From NCBI GenBank assembly GCA_021129775.1, contig JAJOKP010000115.1:1-45995 (forward strand): a stretch of DNA of 45,995 nt, written 5' to 3'. The notes under the pieces were generated by a model that worked only from the letters and a program-made list of their open reading frames with translations, did no database searches and had not been told where the DNA came from. The DNA comes from Clostridiales bacterium. GTDB lineage: Bacteria > Bacillota > Clostridia > Peptostreptococcales > NVVX01. Positions 1-34,794 of this stretch are shown here, one piece after another. The translations under genes were made by a program, and so were the position numbers. Within the stretch, counting starts at the first letter, position 1. Every line of letters starts with the position of its first letter.

Positions 1-1
1 A

Positions 2-673
2 GAACATTTAAAAAACATACACAAATACATTTTTCAAGACATATACGAATGGGCGGGAAAACTTAGAACGGTGGACATTGCAAAAGGAAATAATTTGTTT
101 GCGCTAGAAAGGCATCTAGAGTATGCAGCGAATTATGTTTTCACAGCACTAAAAAAAGAAAATAACTTAATAGGCGTTAAAGCAAATGTTGAACAATATG
201 CAGATAGACTAGCCTTTCATGCTGGGGAAATTAATATGCTACATCCATTTCGTGAGGGGAATGGTAGATCTCTTCGTGAATTTCTTCGTTGCCTCGCAAA
301 AGAAGCTGGCTATGAAATTAATTGGGTGGATTTTGATAGAGACTCTATCTATAATTCTTTTGTCAAGTCTTCAGTAGATCACGTGCCGTTAAAGAAAGAA
401 TTTAAGAATCATTTTTTGGAAAACGAAAGAAAGTGGTATGTTAGTACATATTCTTGTGCTTGTTTGTTGTCTTCTGAAACTGTTGAAAAATGCATCAGAA
501 TCAACAGAACTGTTGGGAAAAAACAAAACTTAAGGCAACTCAAAAATCTAAGAACTAACCCTGCTTTCAAAAACATCACTTATGACGTTATTAACGATTT
601 CAAAGTCGCGGCCATTAAACACAGAAAAGAAAACAGCAAAAAAATGATTAATAAAATCGATTTAGAATTATAG
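2..673 (+). CDS. Fic/DOC family protein, 5' end outside window
   Basis: The frame is open from the first bases of the window, so the true start lies upstream; the GTG at 71 is internal. The visible protein starts with ENLK-like helices (HLKNIHKYIF, then DIYEWAGKLRTVDIAKGN) typical of Fic domains. It carries the Fic signature HPFREGNGRS at about 242-271, with the catalytic histidine and the GNGR anion hole intact. Fic proteins transfer AMP or another nucleotide moiety onto hydroxyl side chains of target proteins. An N-terminal inhibitory helix, if present, would lie outside the window, and no S/TxxxE(G/N) inhibitory motif is seen in the C-terminal tail. It is followed after 16 bases by a small ORF with a good ribosome site. 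Substrate and biological role cannot be inferred. The Fic call is secure. Confidence 0.9.
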   Translation, partial: EHLKNIHKYIFQDIYEWAGKLRTVDIAKGNNLFALERHLEYAANYVFTALKKENNLIGVKANVEQYADRLAFHAGEINMLHPFREGNGRSLREFLRCLAKEAGYEINWVDFDRDSIYNSFVKSSVDHVPLKKEFKNHFLENERKWYVSTYSCACLLSSETVEKCIRINRTVGKKQNLRQLKNLRTNPAFKNITYDVINDFKVAAIKHRKENSKKMINKIDLEL

Positions 674-689
674 AAAGGTGGTAATGTAA

Positions 690-932
690 TTGAATTTTGC
701 TTATTTAAGTAGTTTATACAAAGAAATATGCGAAGATTTTGAAGAACTCGGTTTTTCGGTTGTTATTTCTGATCTTCTTGATTTTAACGAAATTGCGGAG
801 ACTTCTAAATTAAAGATTACCACAAGTGGCGTAAAGCCCCTTGCTTCAGCTATGGGGAGTTTCAGAAAAATAGTAATTGATTTAGCAAGCGTTAAAGACG
901 ATAACGCTTTTTTAAATGCAATAAAAAAATAA
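690..932 (+). CDS. Small hypothetical protein, probably truncated by an A-tract frameshift
   Basis: An 80-codon ORF begins with TTG at 690 behind AAAGGTGG at 675-681, 16 bases after the fic stop, so the two are probably cotranscribed. The product is soluble, with no signal peptide or membrane helix. It ends at TAA just after a run of seven A (923-929). One more A would fuse it in frame to the next 39 codons (935-1054), giving a 121-residue protein whose alternating hydrophobic strands (VVISDLL, IVIDLAS, IIIIATN, YDIVLS) resemble a receiver-like or Rossmann-like alpha/beta fold. I do not recognise a family. No FicA-type inhibitory motif is visible, so calling it an antitoxin would be unsupported. 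Confidence 0.5.
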   Translation: MNFAYLSSLYKEICEDFEELGFSVVISDLLDFNEIAETSKLKITTSGVKPLASAMGSFRKIVIDLASVKDDNAFLNAIKK

Positions 933-934
933 GG

Positions 935-1054
935 TTGACACAAGAACAAGCACAAATAATTATTATTGCAACTAACAGGGAAAAAGAAAAAGATGTGCTT
1001 CTAGCGAACCTGGTAAGGCTTGGGGTATACGATATTGTCTTGTCAATAAATTAA
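935..1054 (+). pseudogene. Out-of-frame C-terminal remnant of the preceding ORF
   Basis: This frame encodes 39 residues starting LTQEQAQIIIIATNREKEK and ending YDIVLSIN before TAA. It has no ribosome site of its own. It would continue the ORF at 690-932 if the A7 run at 923-929 had eight A. The joined sequence keeps a regular strand-helix alternation across the junction, which is why I read it as the severed C-terminus rather than chance coding. Confidence 0.45.
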
Positions 1055-1107
1055 ATGCTAGTAAAATCACTTTGATACAATTTTTAAATTAGAAATTTTT
1101 AAAAAAA

Positions 1108-1150
1108 CCAAGGTCGATAATCTGTTAAAACAATAGATTATCGATCTTGG
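1108..1150. terminator. 17-bp stem-loop between the fic unit and cysK
   Basis: CCAAGGTCGATAATCTG (1108-1124) pairs with 1134-1150 (TAGATTATCGATCTTGG) with one or two imperfect pairs and a 9-base loop. An A7 run precedes the left arm, so on the minus strand the hairpin would be followed by a U tract. On the plus strand no T tract follows. It could stop transcripts in either direction, most convincingly on the minus strand, or be a simple palindromic repeat. The rest of 1055-1263 shows no gene and no convincing promoter. Confidence 0.4.
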
Positions 1151-1263
1151 CTAGTATATAATATTAATATCTTAGGTCAAAAATGATTTAGCAACCCAAT
1201 ATTTTGATATCATCTAGATTTTGAATGTTTTGGAATGGATGCAGTTATGGAGGAAGTGATACT

Positions 1264-22755: not shown

Positions 22756-25700
22756 GTGTACGACGTTAATGGAGATGACAAAGAAGATTTGATGTTTACA
22801 GATAGATCAGGGAAAATGCATATCATCTCAGATTGCAACTCATCAGGATGGGAAAATAGAGTGCACAATATACCGTTGAAGCTTGGGACGAATAAAGTAC
22901 ATGGACAACATACGCAATTTTTTGACTTTAACAATGATGAAAGAATGGATATGATAAGTGTGAAAGCACTAAGATCACGGGATAGAAATACGACAGACTT
23001 AACCTTTAGAGTCGCAGTGAAAGAGGGGATAAGTAAAGGGAGCGCATTTATTTCAAAAGATTATGAAGCTTTTAAAATAACTGGAATACAAGTAGAAGAG
23101 AAAAATGGAATAAAGACTGCAATAGTTCACGGAGAAGATACAGAAATATTGCTAAATATGGCTTCGGTATTTCAACATTTGTTTATGAATAGCAGCGAGT
23201 CAATAAGTCAAGAAATCTCTCAGTATAGAGATAATGCTATGGAAAATCCAAACGATATTTCTATAATTGAAGGTGGATATGAGCATTTCTATACGGCGAT
23301 GCTTGATATAGGAAGACGTTTATATGAAGATGTAGGCAGTTTGTATCAAGAAGTAAAACCAGTTTTATTGCTCTTTTATGAAGAAAGCAAGTACGTAAAT
23401 CTTGATGATTTTGAAGGTGTCCATTTTACAGGCAAAGGAGTTAGTCTTGATGTTTCTTCTAGAGATATAGTGAGCAAGAAACAAATGACTATGCAGTGGA
23501 TTTCAGGTGCTCACACATTAGGACAACATGAAATAAATGAAATGGTAGAGAATAATCCTAATGGGGGATTTGATTTTAATGAGAATAAATTTGAGGTTAA
23601 AGAACAATTAGCATTTTGGAATCTTGGGCTAGCTAGTATCATCGGAATTGGCAACACATTTCCAGAAAAGGTAAATGACTATATTCGAGTCACTGCTTAC
23701 GAATGGGCGCAACGCCCTGATTCAGCCTTTGGAGCAACTAAGATACTACTAGGGATAAAAGCTCCAATCCAAACGATTGGGAATGTTGGGTGGAAATATG
23801 AAGTCAAACTTGCAAGATATAACAAATACTCAAAAGCTTCTAAAGGAGCTGCGAGACTTGGCGGAGTTGCGGCAGTGGCTATGGGTGTTCATTCGGGCAT
23901 TTTGTATGGACAAGAGATGGCTAAAGTTGGAGGAACTACTTTTGGTGTAGTTACAGGAGTGACTTACGGTGTGCTTATCGCAGCAAGTGGTTTTCTATAT
24001 GGTACTTTAGCGGCTGATGGACCAGTTGGTTGGGTGCTGTTAGCATTTTTAGTGGTAGACACTGTAATCGCTTTTTTTGTAGATGATTATGACGGAGTTG
24101 TATCGAAGATAACTATGGGTATAATGTCAGTTTTTTATGACGCTAAGCAATATCCTGGGACAATTATAAGGACTTTTAGACAAACAAGTGATAAAGGCAA
24201 AAACAAACAGATACTTAAAAACATAGACTATGGCATTACAGTAGGCTCTGAAATTAGAACTTTAAGTGAGTTTATGACACGTGTAAGAGCAGCGACAAAA
24301 AGCACTCCAGCTAATAAGAAATCAAAGCTAGAAGATAGTTTTGCGAATTTTCACCTTTGGAATAAAAGTAATACAATTACGGTAGACAACGATATGGAAA
24401 TGACGCATGAAAACGTATACAAATACAGAGGCTATTGGAATCATAATAGAATATTCGAATTCGACAACAGACTTTCATTTGGCAAAGCAGGAATGAATTT
24501 GAGAGTAGATCATAAATCGAGACTATATTATAAATTAATTGAAAAAGTGACGAAAACTAGGTATGGAGTATATACTTTTTATGAATATGATTGGGATCGA
24601 GGAAATATTAGGTCATTAAACAGTTCGTTTTATGACGTAATCCCTAATGAATTATCGCATTTTTGGCTAGCATTTAGTTTTCTAGTAGATGAGCAGAGAG
24701 TTCCTTTAGTAAAAAACAATGAAATTCTCAAAGTAGATCCAGATGGAGATGGACTCTTTACACATGGTAGTGTTGAAATTGATAACGAAGGAAATGTGGT
24801 TAATTCTGATCCTTTTAAGCGAGATACAGATTACGATGGTATATCGGATAGTCGAGAACACGTAATTGAAACAAATTTAAGAAGTGCAGACACAGACGGA
24901 GATGGACTTACTGATTTAGAAGAATTAATATATGAGACAGATCCTTTGAAAGTTGATACTGATGGTGACGGGGTGTCTGATTATGTAGAACTAAACACAG
25001 CAGTTAATATAGTAATAAACGTAGATGGAAATCAAATTAGTGCTTTGGCATATTCAAGTCCGGTAGATGCAGATACTGACAGTGATTTTGTCTCAGATAA
25101 TATTGAGAGAGATCAAGGTACTAACCCAGCATCTAAATTTACTCATGGGCAAGAACTATTTGATGGTAATCAATTTGCACCAAGTTTCAAAAAAGAATTT
25201 GAAGACATACCCAATGCTGAGGACGGAGTAGAAATTGTTTTAAACCTTTATGATTATATTGAAGATAAAGATGGAGATGATTTGGTATTTAAAGCTAGCA
25301 TTGGCGAAATTGATGTAAGCGGAAACTGGACTTACACGTTTGACACGATAAACGACGGAAAAGTCATCGAAGTAAAAATTGAAGCAACTGACTTAAAAGT
25401 AGGAGAGTTAGTTACAAGTTTTAAAGTATTCGATACAGAGTTACCATTTGTAACAAATGTGATTGCAAGAACTCCTTTAGGGGAAATCGAAGCAGAAACA
25501 ACAGGTGATTTCGAGGCAAAACTTAGTACAAATCCAATTTTCACTTTAACTTTTAGCGAAAATATAACGCTTGTCGATTCTGGCTATGACGAATCGATAC
25601 CTGTTACAATAGAGCCAATTGATAGAATAGAACTTGATGTTGATTTACTAGGGGAGCCAATATGTGCGGACGCAGTAGTTACACAGATATCAGCAAATGC

Positions 25701-27348
25701 AATTACGGTTGAAAGAGTAGATGGAATTGTTGAAAACGGAATTGAGTATAAGTTGAGTATACCTATGAATATGATAAAAGATAGTAGTGGTAACGTGCTA
25801 GAAGGAAATCATGAAATACTATTTACTTCTATTGATACGATAAAGCCAAAACTTGTGCTTGTATCGCCGCATGTTAATTTAACCGAACAATTGATCGTTG
25901 AATTTAACGAAGATATTGACATTATAGAACATAAAATACATGTTATGGAACTAGCAAGTGCAAAACAAAAAATTCTGACTTCTGATGTTTATGGAAAAAG
26001 AGGTTTGCAAGTCGCTGTCGTAGGGAATTTATTGCATAGTGAGCAGAGTTACAGATTTAGAAATAAACTACCGATGAATGTTGTTGACAAGAGTGGAAAT
26101 AGATTTGATATTAACGTAGATGATTGGGAATCGCGTTTTAGAATTTTCACGACAGGCGAGGTCGCTGGACCAAGAATCCAAGCAATGGAAGGCAACTTGT
26201 TTTCTATTGATGTCTACGCTTTAAGTGTGTTGGATGGAGAAATTAGAATTCCATTTAATAAACCAATATTCAAAGGCGAGCGATTCGAAAATATTATTTT
26301 GTCATATGATAGAGGGATCGCTTTTTGGGGAAATGCTAGGGATTCAAAGCTGCGTCATCTAATAAAAGCAGGAGCTTTACCTATGTCAATCCGAATAGAA
26401 GAGAACTTCTTAGTAGTAACACCGACACATTTTGACCCAAGCATATCATATGCTCTATATATTCCAGAAAAGGCCTTGGTGGATAGTCTTGGCACTTATA
26501 TAAAAGAAGAATGGGAAGGGTTAAGGATTCGTGGCCAATGGACAGAAGATGAACGCTACATGAAAGTTGTTGCCGTTAAACAAACCACTACGCCTCCAGA
26601 AGTAAAACATATTGTAACTTTAAGAGACGCAAGTCCTCTAGGAAGTATTGAAGCTCTGTTAGGGGCATTCAATGAGCAGACAACAGTGGAAGCAAGCAAA
26701 ATGTTGGTTGCGATTTTTGCCGAAGATGTCATTGTTAATCCACCTAATTACTTAAATACGATTAGTGTTTGGGAGTTAGATGAAAATGGGGTAGAGGTAG
26801 CGCAAGTTTCAATTGATGACGTTTTTCTGCCTTCGCAAGCAGCAGGAGTCGCTAGTTTGGCTATGTTAATTATGTTGGATAGCGTGCTTGAAATGGGACT
26901 TAGCTATAAACTAAAGATTCTGGCAGGACTTATTAAAAATGCAACAGCAATACATGAAATACCAGGAATGCCGACAATACCAGGAATGCCACCAGTGCCT
27001 GGAACACCACCAGTCCCTGGAACACCATCAGTGCCTGGAACACCACCAGTGCCTGGAACGTCAGAGCAACCTAGGAGACCAAAGGCGCTTGCAACACTAG
27101 CGATGCTTGGGTCACCAGTTGTGTTTGGAGTACCACCAGTACCACCAACACCACCAGTGCCGACAGTGCCCCCAGTACCAACAATACCAACAATGCCAGC
27201 AATCCCTACGGGTTTGTATTCGCCAAATGAAGCGCAAGAAATAATTTTTACAGTTAACAGTGAAAGAGCGTCTATGACTGGTGGTACAGATTTAGACGAA
27301 TTATCGTTTGAAGGGGTGAAAAGAGTTGGGGGAGCAAATATTCCTTGA
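22756..27348 (+). CDS. Giant secreted surface protein, fragment 3 (repeat, Ig-like and proline-rich regions)
   Basis: A 1,530-codon open frame, in frame with fragments 1 and 2; the first in-frame start is GTG 22756 without a ribosome site. It begins with FG-GAP-like units (VNGDDKEDLMFTDRSGKMHI; FDFNNDERMDM). Residues 365-442 hold two or three hydrophobic segments rich in Gly and Ala. Thrombospondin type 3-like repeats follow at 660-795 (DPDGDGLFT, DTDGDGLTDLEELIYETDP). Next come Ig-like or SbsA-like segments at 800-1390 (IKPKLVLVSPHVNLTEQLIV) and a proline-rich PPVPGT repeat tract near 1400-1486. The frame breaks near the G5 run at 27328-27332 and fragment 4 continues in another frame. Confidence 0.7.
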   Translation: MYDVNGDDKEDLMFTDRSGKMHIISDCNSSGWENRVHNIPLKLGTNKVHGQHTQFFDFNNDERMDMISVKALRSRDRNTTDLTFRVAVKEGISKGSAFISKDYEAFKITGIQVEEKNGIKTAIVHGEDTEILLNMASVFQHLFMNSSESISQEISQYRDNAMENPNDISIIEGGYEHFYTAMLDIGRRLYEDVGSLYQEVKPVLLLFYEESKYVNLDDFEGVHFTGKGVSLDVSSRDIVSKKQMTMQWISGAHTLGQHEINEMVENNPNGGFDFNENKFEVKEQLAFWNLGLASIIGIGNTFPEKVNDYIRVTAYEWAQRPDSAFGATKILLGIKAPIQTIGNVGWKYEVKLARYNKYSKASKGAARLGGVAAVAMGVHSGILYGQEMAKVGGTTFGVVTGVTYGVLIAASGFLYGTLAADGPVGWVLLAFLVVDTVIAFFVDDYDGVVSKITMGIMSVFYDAKQYPGTIIRTFRQTSDKGKNKQILKNIDYGITVGSEIRTLSEFMTRVRAATKSTPANKKSKLEDSFANFHLWNKSNTITVDNDMEMTHENVYKYRGYWNHNRIFEFDNRLSFGKAGMNLRVDHKSRLYYKLIEKVTKTRYGVYTFYEYDWDRGNIRSLNSSFYDVIPNELSHFWLAFSFLVDEQRVPLVKNNEILKVDPDGDGLFTHGSVEIDNEGNVVNSDPFKRDTDYDGISDSREHVIETNLRSADTDGDGLTDLEELIYETDPLKVDTDGDGVSDYVELNTAVNIVINVDGNQISALAYSSPVDADTDSDFVSDNIERDQGTNPASKFTHGQELFDGNQFAPSFKKEFEDIPNAEDGVEIVLNLYDYIEDKDGDDLVFKASIGEIDVSGNWTYTFDTINDGKVIEVKIEATDLKVGELVTSFKVFDTELPFVTNVIARTPLGEIEAETTGDFEAKLSTNPIFTLTFSENITLVDSGYDESIPVTIEPIDRIELDVDLLGEPICADAVVTQISANAITVERVDGIVENGIEYKLSIPMNMIKDSSGNVLEGNHEILFTSIDTIKPKLVLVSPHVNLTEQLIVEFNEDIDIIEHKIHVMELASAKQKILTSDVYGKRGLQVAVVGNLLHSEQSYRFRNKLPMNVVDKSGNRFDINVDDWESRFRIFTTGEVAGPRIQAMEGNLFSIDVYALSVLDGEIRIPFNKPIFKGERFENIILSYDRGIAFWGNARDSKLRHLIKAGALPMSIRIEENFLVVTPTHFDPSISYALYIPEKALVDSLGTYIKEEWEGLRIRGQWTEDERYMKVVAVKQTTTPPEVKHIVTLRDASPLGSIEALLGAFNEQTTVEASKMLVAIFAEDVIVNPPNYLNTISVWELDENGVEVAQVSIDDVFLPSQAAGVASLAMLIMLDSVLEMGLSYKLKILAGLIKNATAIHEIPGMPTIPGMPPVPGTPPVPGTPSVPGTPPVPGTSEQPRRPKALATLAMLGSPVVFGVPPVPPTPPVPTVPPVPTIPTMPAIPTGLYSPNEAQEIIFTVNSERASMTGGTDLDELSFEGVKRVGGANIP
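26961..27060 (+). repeat. 18-bp tandem repeats encoding PPVPGT
   Basis: Units of CCACCAGTGCCTGGAACA type repeat about four to five times with small changes and encode (P/S)PVPGT hexapeptides, preceded by two PGMPTI/PGMPPV units. A looser proline-rich part (PPVPPTPPVPTVPPVP) follows at about 27130-27205. It probably forms an extended stalk in the surface protein and is prone to copy-number change. Confidence 0.8.
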
Positions 27349-28867
27349 AAGCAAGTACGAAAAATACATGGAAAAAATCGGCGGAAATATTAGGTATCAG
27401 TGGTATAGATCGGGCACACCAAAATGGAAAGATGCCACGAAAATCCCTGGAGCTAACAAATTGATCTATATACCTGAAATAGCAGACCAGGAAGGATTTT
27501 TGTTCTTGAAAATGACTATGGAATATATTGATGCAGTCATACCACCAGTACTATTGAATTACGTAATGACAGAAAAATTGGAGACAGAGCGAGTTTTTGT
27601 TTCGCCTGCACTTGGTCCGGTATTGCCAGCTTTCTTTATTGAGTCAGACTTAAAAAATATTTCTGTATTTGATAATGAAGGAAATGAACTTCTGCAGAAT
27701 TTCGACAATGAGATTAAAAATTATAGCATTGAAGTAGGCGCAAATGTCACTTCAGTTAGAGTATATCCTACTTGGGTATCAAGCAATAATAACTATGTTG
27801 TTATCAATGGAGTTCCTTCTGAATTATGGGATGCACAAGCTGGTGGACTAAATATTCCTTTGAAGTTTGGTAATAACAAAATAATAGTAGTATCTACTGC
27901 TGAGAGCTTTGCAGGTGTAAACACCTTCTCTATCAGTGTAGATAGGAAAGTAAAAGGTGAAGAAGATGTTAAATTACTTCCACCACAAGCTAGATTCGTA
28001 AAAATTGATAATAGCTTTGACGAGTTTTTGGGTAAAACACTACATGGGAGTTACACTTTTTATGATGAATTAGATAGAGCAGAAAAAGGAACAAAATTCC
28101 AATGGTATCGTCAGAATGACGAAGAAGGAGACGGTAGAGTTGCTATCGTAGGAGCAACTGAGACAACTTACAAGCTAAGCGAAAATGATATTGGGAAGTA
28201 TGTTTATTTCGAGGTCATACCTAAGGCTGAAGGCAGTATTGCAGGTGAAGCAACAATGTCTTGCTGGATTGGACCAATAAATAGAATTGACAGTAAGCTT
28301 AGTAACATTACAGATATTAAGGTTGTTTATGAGGGCAAGAACATACTCAACAATTTTGATGAAATTAGTAAGACTTATATGGTGAACTTCACATCGAAAG
28401 AAGGGAAAGAGATTGTTGAGATATCAGTTGTAGGAGGAGAAGGAATAACAATTAACGGAACAACTGGACACACAAAAAGAGTTAATTTCTACGGAACGCA
28501 TTTGGTAGAAATACAGGCTAATGTACCTAACTCAAGTGAAACAACTTCCTATTTCATACAATTTAATGATGAGGCAAAACCTGCTTCAATCGAAATTAAA
28601 GGAATGCGAGAAGTGAATATAACAGGAGAACATGGAAAAATCGTATCTTTGGAAGCGCTTGTATATGATCAATACAATCAGTTGATTGAAGGAGATATTG
28701 AGTGGACGGTTCCTTCAGGATACGATTTCGAGGTTGTAGGATTTAATAATCAAATATTAAACCTACACTTTCCTTCAAATGTGGCAGCAAAAACAATTGA
28801 AATAAGAGCAAATATTTTTGGAGATGAGAGCGTATCTTATAGAAAGAATATATTGATAACAAACTAA
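27326..28867 (+). CDS. Giant secreted surface protein, fragment 4 (C-terminal beta-sandwich domains)
   Basis: The C-terminal 513 codons, shifted in frame relative to fragment 3 and overlapping it by 23 bases. The frame opens only at 27320, so TTG 27326 is a frame boundary rather than a supported start; ATG 27368 is an alternative without a ribosome site. If GTTGGGGGAGC at 27326 had one G less, fragment 3 would run straight into this sequence. Domains include Ig-like segments with WYR motifs (RYQWYRSG near 20, FQWYRQND near 255) and two cadherin-like beta-sandwich units (LKNISVFDNEGNELLQNFD near 107 and LSNITDIKVVYEGKNILNNF near 319). There is no LPXTG, SLH or other wall anchor at the end. Confidence 0.65.
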   Translation: MGEQIFLESKYEKYMEKIGGNIRYQWYRSGTPKWKDATKIPGANKLIYIPEIADQEGFLFLKMTMEYIDAVIPPVLLNYVMTEKLETERVFVSPALGPVLPAFFIESDLKNISVFDNEGNELLQNFDNEIKNYSIEVGANVTSVRVYPTWVSSNNNYVVINGVPSELWDAQAGGLNIPLKFGNNKIIVVSTAESFAGVNTFSISVDRKVKGEEDVKLLPPQARFVKIDNSFDEFLGKTLHGSYTFYDELDRAEKGTKFQWYRQNDEEGDGRVAIVGATETTYKLSENDIGKYVYFEVIPKAEGSIAGEATMSCWIGPINRIDSKLSNITDIKVVYEGKNILNNFDEISKTYMVNFTSKEGKEIVEISVVGGEGITINGTTGHTKRVNFYGTHLVEIQANVPNSSETTSYFIQFNDEAKPASIEIKGMREVNITGEHGKIVSLEALVYDQYNQLIEGDIEWTVPSGYDFEVVGFNNQILNLHFPSNVAAKTIEIRANIFGDESVSYRKNILITN

Positions 28868-30158: not shown

Positions 30159-30416
30159 ATGGTCGAAATTAATGTATGTATAGGAAGTGCCTGTCATTTG
30201 AAGGGCTCATACGATGTAATAAAGAAATTACAGAGTATTATTGATGAAAAAAAACTAGGCGATGAAGTGTTAGTGAAAGCTGCTTTTTGTTTAGGCGATT
30301 GCATGAAAGCAGTTGCTGTAAAAATTAATAAAGATGAAAAAATATTTTCTTTAAATATTAAGAATACAGATGAGTATTTTAATGAATATATTCAAAAGAA
30401 GGTGAATCAATGCTGA
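30159..30416 (+). CDS. Thioredoxin-like [2Fe-2S] ferredoxin (NuoE/HymA-type short form)
   Basis: An 85-residue protein with the four-cysteine pattern of thioredoxin-like 2Fe-2S proteins: CIGSACHLKGS near the N-terminus and CLGDC near residue 48. It lacks the N-terminal helical domain of full NuoE. Such proteins pass electrons to [FeFe] hydrogenases or flavin subunits. ATG 30159 is used rather than upstream frames because it gives the compact domain; the ribosome site GGGGG is at 30145-30149. Its stop overlaps the start of the next hydrogenase-like gene, so the two are coupled and probably interact. Confidence 0.82.
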   Translation: MVEINVCIGSACHLKGSYDVIKKLQSIIDEKKLGDEVLVKAAFCLGDCMKAVAVKINKDEKIFSLNIKNTDEYFNEYIQKKVNQC

Positions 30417-32149
30417 ATTTTGATAAAGCAGATTGCAAAAACTGCTATAAATGTTTAAGAGTTTGCCCTACAAAGGCAATAAGAATAAAAAACGAGCAAG
30501 CTGAATGTGTAGAAAAACTATGTATAGACTGCGGAAAATGTCTTGACGTATGTCCACAAGATGCAATAAAGACTGTAAGTGAAATAGAAAATGTGAAAAA
30601 TGCTATTCGGAGCGGAAGAAATGTTATAGCTAGTGTAGCGCCTTCCTTTGCAGGACTCGTTAAGGGAGAAGAGGTAGGACTTTTTGTGACTGCACTCAAG
30701 AAATTAGGTTTTTCTTATATTGAAGAAACTGCAATAGGCGCAAATCATGTGGCCAATTTATACAAAAACTATTCTGAGGAAAAAGACAGTAAAAACATCA
30801 TTGCTACATGTTGTCCATCTGCAAACTTACTAATAGAGCAATATTATCCATCGTTAATAAAATATATAATGCCCTATGTGACCCCTATGATTGCACATGG
30901 TAAAGTGCTAAAAAATAGATTTGGCACTGATTGTTATGTAGTTTTTATCGGTCCCTGTCCAGCCAAAAAAAATGAAGCAAAGGATCACAGGCATAAAAAT
31001 GATATTGATGCGGTTTTAACATTCGATGAATTGTATAAGTGGTTAGAGCAAAGAGGTGTATTACTATATGAGCTTGACTCTAATGAAACTAATGAAACTA
31101 ATCAAACTAATCAAACTAATGAAATGGTGCAAAAAAGAGGTGCTGCTTTTCCAATAAGAGGAGGAGTACTTGCAAGCTTTATTGCTAATGGAAGTGAGAA
31201 ATATGAAGTGATTCATGCTGATGGGATAGAAGAGTGTATTGCAGTATTTGATTCTATGGTATCAGAGAGCATCTCAGGCGTTTGTGTCGAGCCAAACGTA
31301 TGCAGGGGAAGCTGTATAGGCGGAGTAGGGTATCCTAAAAATGAAAAAGATTACTTTAAAAGATTTAAAAGAGTTAAAGAATATGTGAAAAATTTAGAAA
31401 AAAGCAATATCAATGAGGGAAACAATATGCATCAAAATATAGACTGTTCAAAGGAATTTATAAATAAGTTACAAGATAAGAACGTTGCTCCAGAAGAAAT
31501 TATAAATGCAATTATGAGTAAAATGGGGAAACACGATGTATCAGATGAGCTTAATTGTACTACTTGTGGCTATGATACCTGTAGAGATAAAGCACAGGCT
31601 GTTTACGACGGAATGGCTGAAGTTAACATGTGTTTACCTTTTATGAGAACTAAAGCGGAAAGTTTGAGCAATGTGATGTTTGAAAATTCCCCGAATATAA
31701 TAATTATTGTAGATGATGAGCTGATGGTTAAAGAATATAACCCAAAAGCAGAGGAGACATTTCATATAAGAGTGAAACATATGATAGATAGACCAGTTTC
31801 AATTATTTTAGACGAAGACCCATTTATAGAAGTGCTAAACAACAAGAAAGATATAATAGGGCGTAAAAAAACGTATCCTGAATATGATGTGACACTCGTT
31901 CAAAGTTTAAGTTATTTAAAAGACCAAAATAAAGTGTTAACAATATTGACAGACATTACTGCATTAGAAGAGCAAAAGGAAGAAATGATTAGGGCAAAAG
32001 AAAGTACAATTAATGCTGCCCAAAAAGTAATTGAGAAACAAATGAGGGTTGCACAAGAAATTGCGAGCCTGCTTGGTGAAACTACCGCAGAAACAAAAGT
32101 TACACTTACCAAGTTGAAAAATGTTTTTATAGATGGTGGTGTAAAATGA
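30410..32149 (+). CDS. [FeFe]-hydrogenase-like protein with C-terminal 4Fe-4S and PAS domains (putative redox/H2 sensor)
   Basis: A 579-residue multidomain protein. Residues 1-60 have two 4Fe-4S ferredoxin motifs (CKNCYKCLRVCP, CIDCGKCLDVCP). Residues 65-310 form the hydrogenase large-subunit domain with all cluster cysteines present: ATCCPSANL, IGPCPAKKNE and VCRGSCIGG. A second cluster motif, CTTCGYDTCRDKA, follows near 383, then a PAS domain (about 425-535, FENSPNIIIIVDDELMVKEY) and a helical tail. This layout fits putative sensory (group C-type) hydrogenases. The following gene, overlapping by ATGA, is a protein phosphatase, suggesting output. A 9-base microsatellite encoding NETNETNQTNQTN lies inside the hydrogenase domain near residue 225. 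Confidence 0.85.
   Translation: MLNFDKADCKNCYKCLRVCPTKAIRIKNEQAECVEKLCIDCGKCLDVCPQDAIKTVSEIENVKNAIRSGRNVIASVAPSFAGLVKGEEVGLFVTALKKLGFSYIEETAIGANHVANLYKNYSEEKDSKNIIATCCPSANLLIEQYYPSLIKYIMPYVTPMIAHGKVLKNRFGTDCYVVFIGPCPAKKNEAKDHRHKNDIDAVLTFDELYKWLEQRGVLLYELDSNETNETNQTNQTNEMVQKRGAAFPIRGGVLASFIANGSEKYEVIHADGIEECIAVFDSMVSESISGVCVEPNVCRGSCIGGVGYPKNEKDYFKRFKRVKEYVKNLEKSNINEGNNMHQNIDCSKEFINKLQDKNVAPEEIINAIMSKMGKHDVSDELNCTTCGYDTCRDKAQAVYDGMAEVNMCLPFMRTKAESLSNVMFENSPNIIIIVDDELMVKEYNPKAEETFHIRVKHMIDRPVSIILDEDPFIEVLNNKKDIIGRKKTYPEYDVTLVQSLSYLKDQNKVLTILTDITALEEQKEEMIRAKESTINAAQKVIEKQMRVAQEIASLLGETTAETKVTLTKLKNVFIDGGVK
31080..31125 (+). repeat. 9-bp tandem repeat inside the hydrogenase-PAS gene
   Basis: ACTAATGAA/ACTAATCAA units repeat about five times in frame and encode a TNE/TNQ run. 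Copy changes would alter the protein by three residues without shifting frame. It lies in a loop between the second and third cluster motifs. Confidence 0.8.
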
Positions 32150-33318
32150 GCTTTTTTATTGATTTATCATATGATAGCATTAATAAACAAGGAGAGGAAC
32201 TATGCGGTGACAATGTAGAGATTGTACGAGGAGAAGAGAGTATAATTGTTGTATTAGCAGATGGTCTGGGGAGCGGAGTTAAAGCAAATATTTTAGCTAT
32301 GTTAACTTCAAAAATCGCTGCAACAATGTTAAAAGAAGGACTATCAATTGAGGATACTGTCGACACAATTGTAAAGACTCTTCCAGTATGTAGTGTTAGA
32401 CAGTTGGCATATGCAACATTTACGATATTTAAAATAGAAAATGATGGACATATATATATCGTAGAGTTCGATAATCCACCAATTGTATTTGTTAGAGATA
32501 ACAAACTGCAAGAAATTAAAAAAACACCCAGATTTATAAATGATAGAGTTATTTACGAGAGCAATTTAGAGCTTGAGCAAGGCGATGTTTTGGTTGCATT
32601 TAGTGACGGGGTCATTCACGCAGGAGTCGGTGCTATTTTAAATTTAGGATGGCAGTGGGAAAACGTATCGAAACACTTAGTTAGGGTGACAAAAAAAGCG
32701 AAGAGCGCAAAATTTATTTCTAGAGATTTAATTGAAACATGTCAAAATTTATATGATTTTCGACCTGGAGACGACACTACTGTCGTAGCTCTTAAGATCC
32801 GAAAACTAGCAATAATAGATCTTTTTACTGGTCCACCAGAAGATAAAAGGAACGATAGTTTTGCGGTGAGAATGTTGATGAATGCAAGAGGGAAAAAAGT
32901 TGTTTGTGGAGGTACTGCTGCTGCAATCGTATCGCGTGAATTAGACGAAAATATTACTGTTAACATTGGGACTATGAACTCAGAAGTACCACCAACAGCA
33001 TTTATTAAAGGGATAGATTTAGTGACAGAAGGAGTACTAACCATGGTGAAAACAGTGGAAATAATTAGCAAACTTAATAATGAGAGCAGAAATGATTCAT
33101 CCGTTTATGACTTTAGGAAGAATGATGGTGCAACACAATTAGCAAAATTGCTAATAGAGGACTGTACACATCTGAATTTGTGGGTAGGGAGAGCTATTAA
33201 TCCAGCTCACCAAAACCCTGATTTACCAGTTGATCTAAGCATAAAGTTGAAAGTTGTTGCTGATTTAGTTAAATTGTTGAAAGGCATGGGAAAAAATGTA
33301 AAGCTCACATATATTTAG
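32146..33318 (+). CDS. SpoIIE/PP2C-type protein phosphatase with extra C-terminal domain
   Basis: A 390-residue cytoplasmic protein. Residues 1-215 match SpoIIE-type serine phosphatases: GDNVEIVRGEESIIVVLADG, then LGSG; ALVAFSDGVIHAG-type and PGDDTTVVALK keep the metal-binding aspartates. Residues 220-390 form a separate glycine-containing domain (KKVVCGGTAAAIVSREL, TEGVLTMVKTVEII) that I cannot assign. It overlaps the upstream hydrogenase-PAS gene by 4 bases, so the phosphatase is likely its output, dephosphorylating an unknown protein such as an anti-sigma antagonist. No anti-sigma or antagonist gene is in the window. Confidence 0.85.
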   Translation: MSFFIDLSYDSINKQGEELCGDNVEIVRGEESIIVVLADGLGSGVKANILAMLTSKIAATMLKEGLSIEDTVDTIVKTLPVCSVRQLAYATFTIFKIENDGHIYIVEFDNPPIVFVRDNKLQEIKKTPRFINDRVIYESNLELEQGDVLVAFSDGVIHAGVGAILNLGWQWENVSKHLVRVTKKAKSAKFISRDLIETCQNLYDFRPGDDTTVVALKIRKLAIIDLFTGPPEDKRNDSFAVRMLMNARGKKVVCGGTAAAIVSRELDENITVNIGTMNSEVPPTAFIKGIDLVTEGVLTMVKTVEIISKLNNESRNDSSVYDFRKNDGATQLAKLLIEDCTHLNLWVGRAINPAHQNPDLPVDLSIKLKVVADLVKLLKGMGKNVKLTYI

Positions 33319-33336
33319 TATGAAGGAGATAATCTG

Positions 33337-33852
33337 ATGAGAAAGCATATTAATGAGATACAGTCGATAAAATTTAAAGCGTTGAGAGAGGTGGCAGTGT
33401 TATCCTTTGCGGGCAGATTGGAAGAAGAAAAAGATAGTATAGCTGAGCTAGTAGATCCAGGTCCTGAACCAAGAATACGCTGTTGTATACACAAAGAGAG
33501 AGCAATAACCACCGAAAGGGTTAATCTGGCAATAGGAGGCGATAGAAGTAATCCGAACGTTGTAGAAGTTTTGCCAGCAGCTTGCGACGGGTGTCCAATA
33601 GATAGATTCGTTGTTACCGATGCGTGTAGGGGCTGTTTATCGCATCAATGCCTAGAAGTGTGTCCGATTAAAGGGGCAATATTTTTTAGTGACGGAAGCG
33701 TTTATATTAACCAGAAAAAATGTGTGGAATGCGGCAAATGCAAAGAAGTCTGCCCATATCACGCTATTATTGATAGAATGCGCCCATGTAAGAGAGTTTG
33801 CCCAACAGATTCTTTACAAGTCGATGAAAACAGAAAGGCAACTATTGAGTAG
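33337..33852 (+). CDS. [FeFe]-hydrogenase (group B-like), N-terminal part, cut by in-frame TAG
   Basis: The first 171 codons of an iron hydrogenase gene, starting at ATG 33337 behind GAAGGAGAT. The protein has a helical start (EIQSIKFKALREVAVLSFAG), a cysteine pair in RCCIHKERAI and several 4Fe-4S motifs (CDGCP, CRGCLSHQCLEVCP, CVECGKCKEVCP). The frame ends in TAG at 33850-33852 and resumes immediately, in the same frame, with the next cluster motif. Normal homologs read through this point (ATIxxxxCxxCGxC). A CAG-to-TAG or similar point change is the simplest cause. As it stands the product has electron-transfer clusters but no catalytic domain. Confidence 0.8.
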   Translation: MRKHINEIQSIKFKALREVAVLSFAGRLEEEKDSIAELVDPGPEPRIRCCIHKERAITTERVNLAIGGDRSNPNVVEVLPAACDGCPIDRFVVTDACRGCLSHQCLEVCPIKGAIFFSDGSVYINQKKCVECGKCKEVCPYHAIIDRMRPCKRVCPTDSLQVDENRKATIE

Positions 33853-34794
33853 GAAACATGTGTGCAATGCGGATTGTGCATAGCAGGTTGCCCTTTTGGT
33901 GCTATTATGGATAAATCCAGCATAGCAAATGTAATAGAATTGCTAATAAAAGCAAAAACTGAGGATGCTGTTCATTTGTATGCCGTTGTGGCACCAGCGA
34001 TTGCTAGCCAGATCAATGGCGTGCAAATTGGACAAATAACAGCAGCTATAAAGAAATTAGGGTTTTATGATGTTTTAGAGGTTGCTTTGGGAGCTGAAGT
34101 TGTGGCTTATCATGAAGCCCACGAATTTGCTGAGGATGTTGAGGAAAAAAGGGTTATAACAAGTTCTTGTTGTCCAGCTTTTGTGTCTTTAATAAAAATG
34201 AAATATCCAACATTAGCAGACAATATTTCTTCCACTGTTTCCCCAATGATTGCAATTTCAAGATTAATTAAGCAGATGGATAAAAAAGCTAAGATAGTTT
34301 TTATAGGACCATGTGTGGCAAAGAAAAATGAAATAACACAGGGGAATTTGGGCAAGAGTACTGATTTTGTGTTAACATTTGAAGAAATTGATGCGATTTT
34401 AGATGCTAAGGGCATACAAATAGAGGAATGTGAAGCAGAAGAATTCGGAAATGCATCATATTTTGGCAGAGTATTTGCAAGAACAGGCGGATTAGTTGAA
34501 GCTGTTAGACATGTAATCGATGTTGAGGAAATAGATGTTGATTTCAAACCAATTAGTTGTGATGGAGCTGATGAGTGTAAAAAAGCTTTAAGGCTAGCTA
34601 AGGATAATCGATTAACAGAGAATTTTATTGAAGGAATGGTTTGCAAAGGGGGTTGTATAGCAGGAGCTTGTACCTTGTCTCGTGGACCAAGAGACAAGAA
34701 AAAGGTCGAGGCTTTTGGTAAATTAGCTATTACAAAGGTGATTAAGGACCCTTTGGAAATATTTAATACCCACGATGTCAATATGCATAGATAA
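33853..34794 (+). CDS. [FeFe]-hydrogenase (group B-like), catalytic part after the TAG
   Basis: The continuation, in the same frame directly after the TAG; the first in-frame start codon is GTG 33862 but no ribosome site precedes it. It begins with a 4Fe-4S motif (CVQCGLCIAGCP) and then the H-cluster domain with all three signatures: TSSCCPAFV, GPCVAKKNE and MVCKGGCIAGAC. These fit the less-studied group B hydrogenases of anaerobes. The 310 or so residues are otherwise undamaged, so the nonsense change is recent, is tolerated by readthrough, or is an error. No maturation genes (hydE, hydF, hydG) are in the window. Confidence 0.78.
   Translation, partial: ETCVQCGLCIAGCPFGAIMDKSSIANVIELLIKAKTEDAVHLYAVVAPAIASQINGVQIGQITAAIKKLGFYDVLEVALGAEVVAYHEAHEFAEDVEEKRVITSSCCPAFVSLIKMKYPTLADNISSTVSPMIAISRLIKQMDKKAKIVFIGPCVAKKNEITQGNLGKSTDFVLTFEEIDAILDAKGIQIEECEAEEFGNASYFGRVFARTGGLVEAVRHVIDVEEIDVDFKPISCDGADECKKALRLAKDNRLTENFIEGMVCKGGCIAGACTLSRGPRDKKKVEAFGKLAITKVIKDPLEIFNTHDVNMHR

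Follow-up and report, generated by a model that had tools for sequence, protein, structure and literature searches.

An hfsABCD operon with an interrupted hfsD in a Clostridiales bacterium, its proposed HfsB-to-HfsC switch, and a related cassette beside cyanobacterial hox genes

Four consecutive genes on the plus strand of a contig from a Clostridiales bacterium (JAJOKP010000115.1, assembly GCA_021129775.1; the whole stretch analysed, 45,995 nucleotides, is called the window) encode a small [2Fe-2S] protein, an [FeFe]-hydrogenase-like protein with a PAS domain, a SpoIIE-type phosphatase and a second [FeFe] hydrogenase (positions 30159-34794; Table 1). This locus is a copy, in a new organism, of the known hfsABCD operon and is orthologous to that of Thermoanaerobacterium. 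The initial annotation wrongly presented it as an undescribed system, as hfsABCD had been defined in Thermoanaerobacterium saccharolyticum, where HfsB is a hydrogenase with a PAS domain, HfsC a serine phosphatase homologue and HfsD a ferredoxin-linked hydrogenase (PMC5707799, PMC11837493). Domains were assigned with Pfam and NCBIfam profiles, and the comparison was made with T. butyriciformans (L073), a congener of T. saccharolyticum (hfsABCD record GQ354412). The order A-B-C-D in one direction is found in the window, in L073 and in other relatives. Furthermore, the domains of the window proteins match those of L073: both HfsB proteins are [FeFe] hydrogenases with PAS, the HfsA orthologue of L073 also matches PF01257 (7.5e-08), and the two HfsC phosphatases share 49% identity over their full length. 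The element of the definition that is missing here is an intact ferredoxin-linked HfsD, its gene being interrupted by an in-frame TAG. The close packing noted at the outset is borne out by the coordinates: hfsA and hfsB overlap by 7 bases, hfsB and hfsC share ATGA, and 18 bases separate hfsC from hfsD. The four-gene anatomy first described holds for three genes, which are open as stated; the fourth consists of two open frames, the TAG having been overlooked.

The operon is likely to work as a fermentation switch in which HfsB acts on HfsC, a reading to which published genetics lend weight. Deletion of hfsA or hfsB in T. saccharolyticum increased ethanol yield about 1.8-fold and raised adhE expression, and deletion of hfsC, hfsD or the whole operon gave no rise in ethanol yield (PMC5707799). 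The hfsB deletion was effective in four other species as well, and it increased hydrogenase activity (PMC5707799). Work in Thermoanaerobacterium further showed that hfsD is required for the high-ethanol state that follows hfsB loss (PMC11837493). In Ruminococcus albus, a cluster that joins a group C hydrogenase and a Ser/Thr phosphatase to a ferredoxin hydrogenase and an alcohol/aldehyde dehydrogenase was 111-fold down in co-culture with an H2 consumer, which the authors interpreted as H2 sensing (PMC6776011). Because of the Thermoanaerobacterium deletions and the R. albus expression data, the logic by which a hydrogenase sensor controls fermentation through a phosphatase is already a published hypothesis.

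The description of HfsB as a hydrogenase with all cluster cysteines, an extra cluster motif and a PAS domain was upheld both by profile matches, which include two 4Fe-4S motifs, and by the alignment of relatives. An alignment of about 65 HfsB sequences places the H-cluster cysteines at residues 135, 183, 298 and 302, and these ligands are retained in essentially all clostridial HfsB proteins. In view of this conservation, the notion that HfsB is a degenerate hydrogenase was rejected. The spacing of its extra Fe-S motif is the pattern stated for sensory [FeFe] hydrogenases (PMC8163306). Compared by motifs and domain profiles, HfsB shares with group C (M2f) enzymes the four H-cluster cysteines, the two N-terminal 4Fe-4S motifs and a Cx2Cx4Cx16C motif followed by PAS, but not the group's loss of the proton-transfer cysteine C299: the position equivalent to C299 of CpI is a Cys in the window protein (residue 134) and C, S, A, T, G or Y in relatives. 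After the PAS domain, HfsB terminates in the most conserved segment of its C-terminal half, QMRVAQEIASLLGETTAETK, which has a mean column identity of 0.85 versus 0.40-0.56 elsewhere in that half (82 sequences) and is also retained in versions of the protein that consist of PAS only. This segment is a candidate phosphatase-docking helix. As a separate observation, a single in-frame TAG (L090:4213-4215) cuts hfsB of Maledivibacter halophilus in two, separating the H-domain from the FeS-PAS part, and is the second in-frame TAG seen within an hfs gene.

HfsC was aligned with 52 relatives, revealing D22, D39, G40, D154, D209 and D210 as invariant residues; the metal-binding aspartates of PP2C phosphatases are present in the window protein and invariant across the 52 sequences. 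Its AlphaFold model (predicted local distance difference test, pLDDT, 88.6) was matched by Foldseek to SpoIIE (5mqh/5ucg). The PP2C fold starts in this model with its first strand, and HfsC itself contributes no regulatory helix ahead of it. In SpoIIE and RsbP, the preceding helix of the regulatory part acts on two switch helices (PMC5468089). Because HfsC starts at the PP2C fold without such a helix and HfsB ends in a conserved segment, analogy suggests that the two proteins may form a split RsbP-type switch operating in trans, with PAS and helix on HfsB and the phosphatase on HfsC.

The unassigned domain reported at the C terminus of the phosphatase is real: beyond the PF07228 match, its approximately 170 residues belong to no Pfam family, neither in the window protein nor consistently in relatives, and its model (pLDDT 89) has no PDB match below E 1e-3. 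The family consensus of this domain contains the motifs VCGGTTANIVAR, GIDLVTEGVLTL and INPAHQNP. The best Foldseek matches were to methylglyoxal synthase and were weak (E 6.6e-3, template-modelling score 0.41-0.45), and a profile comparison yielded nothing. Assignment as a methylglyoxal-synthase domain was, accordingly, not adopted, the resemblance being a hint from the fold that profile comparison did not confirm.

The signal, the direction of signalling, the docking of HfsB on HfsC and the substrate can be inferred as follows. HfsB, partnered by the small 2Fe-2S protein HfsA, would report H2 or reduced ferredoxin from its H-domain via its Fe-S clusters, and the C-terminal Fe-S motif would hand this state to the PAS domain. 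The C-terminal segment of HfsB would then dock on the switch helices of its partner HfsC, acting in trans to turn the phosphatase on or off. HfsC, in turn, would dephosphorylate a regulator that sets expression of fermentation and hydrogenase genes, adhE being the known downstream gene elsewhere. HfsD, broken in this assembly, would be a separate ferredoxin-linked hydrogenase, maybe under the same regulation.

Table 1. Genes, domains and motifs of the hfsABCD locus (window coordinates).
Feature	Position	Strand	Description	Evidence
hfsA	30159..30416	+	thioredoxin-like [2Fe-2S] ferredoxin, 85 aa, CIGSAC ... CLGDC	PF01257 6.1e-07
hfsB	30410..32149	+	[FeFe]-hydrogenase-like sensor, 579 aa	Pfam/NCBIfam and residue conservation
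HfsB H-domain	30620..31324	+	H-cluster domain	PF02906 5.5e-50; alignment of about 65 HfsB sequences
HfsB extra C-terminal Fe-S motif	31550..31639	+	C-x2-C-x4-C-x16-C	PF04060 (FeS) 7.9e-09
HfsB PAS domain	31670..31960	+		PAS_8 1.2e-04, above cut-off; PAS and PAS_9 weaker
HfsB C-terminal segment	32030..32098	+	IEKQMRVAQEIASLLGETTAETK	most conserved stretch of C-terminal half
hfsC	32146..33318	+	SpoIIE/PP2C phosphatase plus C-terminal domain without assigned family	PF07228 1.3e-19
HfsC PP2C/SpoIIE domain	32146..32811	+	residues 1-222	PF07228 1.3e-19 on residues 31-218
HfsC C-terminal domain	32812..33318	+	alpha/beta domain, residues 223-390	in every relative examined
hfsD	33337..34794	+	group B1-like monomeric [FeFe] hydrogenase with in-frame stop	TIGR04105
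In-frame TAG in hfsD	33850..33852	+	directly ahead of an Fe-S motif	sequence and alignment

A scan of named genomes with HfsC yielded 63 loci, spread over Clostridia, Fusobacteria and cyanobacteria plus one spirochaete; because it was seeded from window peptides, this sample is biased, and some of its species are closely related to each other. Neighbours were counted in the 48 loci flanked on either side by 3 kb or more of sequence. HfsC was accompanied by an HfsB- or PAS-type protein in all 48 of these, by HfsA in 43 and by HfsD in 14 (absent from 34), and a bifurcating-type hydrogenase gene was present in about 14 others. The co-occurrence of the gene set that the initial annotation had proposed as a check is conserved far beyond chance. 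Hydrogenase (HydA/HydB) and alcohol dehydrogenase genes recur among the neighbours of HfsC. In Tissierella simiarum (L051), and likewise in cyanobacteria, the B protein consists of PAS only.

A search for the cyanobacterial version covered 390 genomes from the class to which L105 belongs and found HfsC in 27; 23 loci (20 fetched and 3 seeds) were inspected. HfsA and a PAS-only protein lie directly upstream of HfsC in 20 of the 23. This PAS-only protein carries the same conserved C-terminal segment as HfsB, and the cyanobacterial core has no [FeFe] hydrogenase beside it. The cassette is usually found directly downstream of hoxFUYH, which encodes a bidirectional [NiFe] hydrogenase, and is often followed by hoxW. 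Upstream of HfsA-PAS-HfsC, hoxH was present in 15 of the 23 loci (L167-L169, L174-L178, L180, L182-L184, L186, L188 and L189), together with hoxF, hoxU and hoxY where the contig reaches. In L182, adhE lies between hoxH and hfsA, and in Spirulina subsalsa (L187) it lies upstream of hfsA; HoxU and AdhE were called above the NCBIfam cut-off. No mention of a PAS or phosphatase gene at the cyanobacterial hox region was found in the accessible papers that were searched, and a cassette lacking the [FeFe] H-domain beside hox seems to be the part of this work that is new. The chances are about even that HfsA, the PAS-helix protein and HfsC constitute a stand-alone redox-to-phosphatase cassette that has become wired to unrelated hydrogenases. 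Clostridia and Fusobacteria would have it fused to a sensory [FeFe] H-domain, and cyanobacteria would have the PAS-only version placed next to hoxFUYH. If so, one phosphatase output would control fermentative electron disposal in both lineages, and Hox would gain an undescribed phosphatase regulator. The version beside hox would also be a simpler place for finding the substrate, and a tractable one if it occurs in a transformable strain.

Several points weigh against a switch from HfsB to HfsC. The recurrent neighbours of HfsC at the loci of relatives do not consistently include a kinase or anti-sigma-type substrate, and a conserved partner of this kind was consequently rejected as the phosphatase substrate. 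A few cyanobacteria have HfsC without neighbouring HfsA or PAS genes. In the literature searched, no report was found of a direct response of hfs proteins to H2 or redox state, of an interaction between them or of phosphatase measurements on them. Finally, hydG and hydF, which are needed for building the H-cluster, were not found above cut-off in this assembly, which is 87% complete. Because the assembly is incomplete and two sister genomes (G001 and G002) both carry hydG and hydF, their absence was not accepted as proof that an H-cluster is lacking. Independently of this organism, a genome listed as 100% complete (G008, L035) encodes HfsB and HfsD with H-cluster cysteines and no HydG or HydF above the cut-offs.

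The TAG divides hfsD into open frames at 33337-33852 and 33862-34794. HfsD matches PF02906 and TIGR04105 (FeFe_hydrog_B1), its first half scoring 174.5 bits and its second half 357.9 bits against TIGR04105, so that neither frame alone passes the cut-off of 450. The stop falls at a variable position, occupied by Y, D, N, E, S, R or Q in relatives. Because TAG is an ordinary stop here, terminating 12 of the 38 window genes, and no pyrrolysyl-tRNA synthetase (PylS) in the assembly reaches the cut-off, recoding of UAG in hfsD was rejected as unsupported; the TAG may be a nonsense mutation or a sequencing error. The sister genome G001, an Alkaliphilus metagenome-assembled genome (L026/L044), retains an hfsD remnant of about 50 codons followed by frame-broken debris up to nadD, and in G002 (L045) the gene is intact (503 aa). 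Relative to G002, the ratio of nonsynonymous to synonymous substitution rates (Ka/Ks) is about 0.09-0.11 for hfsA, hfsB and hfsC, all of them open, which indicates that hfsABC is under strong purifying selection. The corresponding values for hfsD are a ratio of 0.12 and 67% identity, versus about 75% identity for hfsABC; because synonymous sites are near saturation, Ka/Ks does not date the lesion.

These lesions raise the question of whether the hfs system of this organism is what is left of an H2 metabolism in decay. Apart from the hfsD stop and the lack of HydG and HydF above cut-off, a bifurcating-type HydA encoded directly after HydB on contig C44 (L002:1480-2550) starts 236 residues later than its counterpart in a sister genome, which may reflect deletion or misassembly. 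Likewise, window positions 1-1230, upstream of cysK-cysE, hold a Fic-domain fragment and non-coding sequence where G001 has hydG-hydE-hydF. Because the assembly is fragmented as well as incomplete, the hfsD stop, the hydG/hydF gaps and the short HydA may represent real decay or errors and gaps. A full-length HydA is encoded on contig C7 of the same assembly, hydG and hydF persist in both sisters, and hfsABC is open and selectively maintained. That the system is such a relic is considered unlikely.

It is somewhat less likely still that the main role of the phosphatase is to tune the neighbouring group B-like HfsD, an effect that the initial annotation had raised as possible. The proposal draws on the proximity of HfsD to HfsC in 14 of the 48 well-flanked loci, on the requirement for hfsD in the high-ethanol state (PMC11837493) and on the rise in hydrogenase activity upon hfsB deletion (PMC5707799). 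However, hfsD carries a stop in this assembly, has mostly been lost from G001 and is missing from 34 of the 48 loci, whereas hfsABC persists, and no [FeFe] hydrogenase adjoins the cyanobacterial core. Because hfsABC is retained where HfsD is not, HfsD is unlikely to be the obligate target of the phosphatase and is probably not its sole target. The broader chain proposed initially, from hydrogen or ferredoxin redox state to protein dephosphorylation, comes close to the published hypothesis; HfsA, HfsB and HfsC form a conserved unit, and published deletions point to regulation. That HfsABCD forms one catalytic ferredoxin-dependent hydrogenase complex, with HfsA and HfsB in electron-transfer or catalytic roles and the PAS-phosphatase part incidental, is very improbable: although the operon was originally defined as the main H2-producing hydrogenase (Shaw 2009, in the account given in PMC11837493) and HfsB retains all H-cluster ligands and even the C299-equivalent Cys, single-gene and whole-operon deletions have different and partly opposite effects (PMC5707799), conservation in the C-terminal half of HfsB peaks in the segment after PAS, and versions without an H-domain exist.

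Elsewhere in the window (22756-28867), a large surface-type protein with TSP3 repeats is followed by an overlapping open reading frame in another frame, possibly one long gene with a frameshift.

Identification as hfsABCD ties the locus to the genetics of the choice among H2, acetate and ethanol in fermenters, and it is no longer counted as undescribed. The comparisons also narrow the question, in that the target of the HfsB-to-HfsC switch is unlikely to be HfsD alone and HfsB probably acts on HfsC via its C-terminal segment.

Among known systems, hfsABCD of T. saccharolyticum and T. thermosaccharolyticum is closest, agreeing in its four genes, their order and their domains and differing in that hfsD is TAG-interrupted here and HfsC is about 49% identical. 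HfsA is placed here in the thioredoxin-like 2Fe-2S family, whereas it was reported to align poorly with known proteins (PMC11837493). The HydS/HydA2 system of R. albus, as described in PMC6776011 and, for Zheng 2014, as relayed in PMC6776011 and PMC5707799, resembles the locus in combining a group C hydrogenase, PAS and a phosphatase; its transcript also encodes a ferredoxin hydrogenase along with an alcohol/aldehyde dehydrogenase, whereas the operon here contains no alcohol dehydrogenase. Thermotoga maritima HydS (TmHydS; group C, M2f) and T. mathranii TamHydS (group D, M2e) share with HfsB two 4Fe-4S motifs, the H-domain and Cx2Cx4Cx16C, and TmHydS additionally shares PAS and a Gly at the M353 position. 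The C299 equivalent is reported as not conserved in M2e and M2f enzymes (PMC8163306), yet it is a Cys in the window HfsB. Finally, the RsbP, RsbU and SpoIIE switches share the SpoIIE-family PP2C fold with HfsC, and the PAS and helix input would be as in RsbP; here, in contrast, sensor and phosphatase are separate proteins, and HfsC lacks a preceding helix and carries an extra C-terminal domain.

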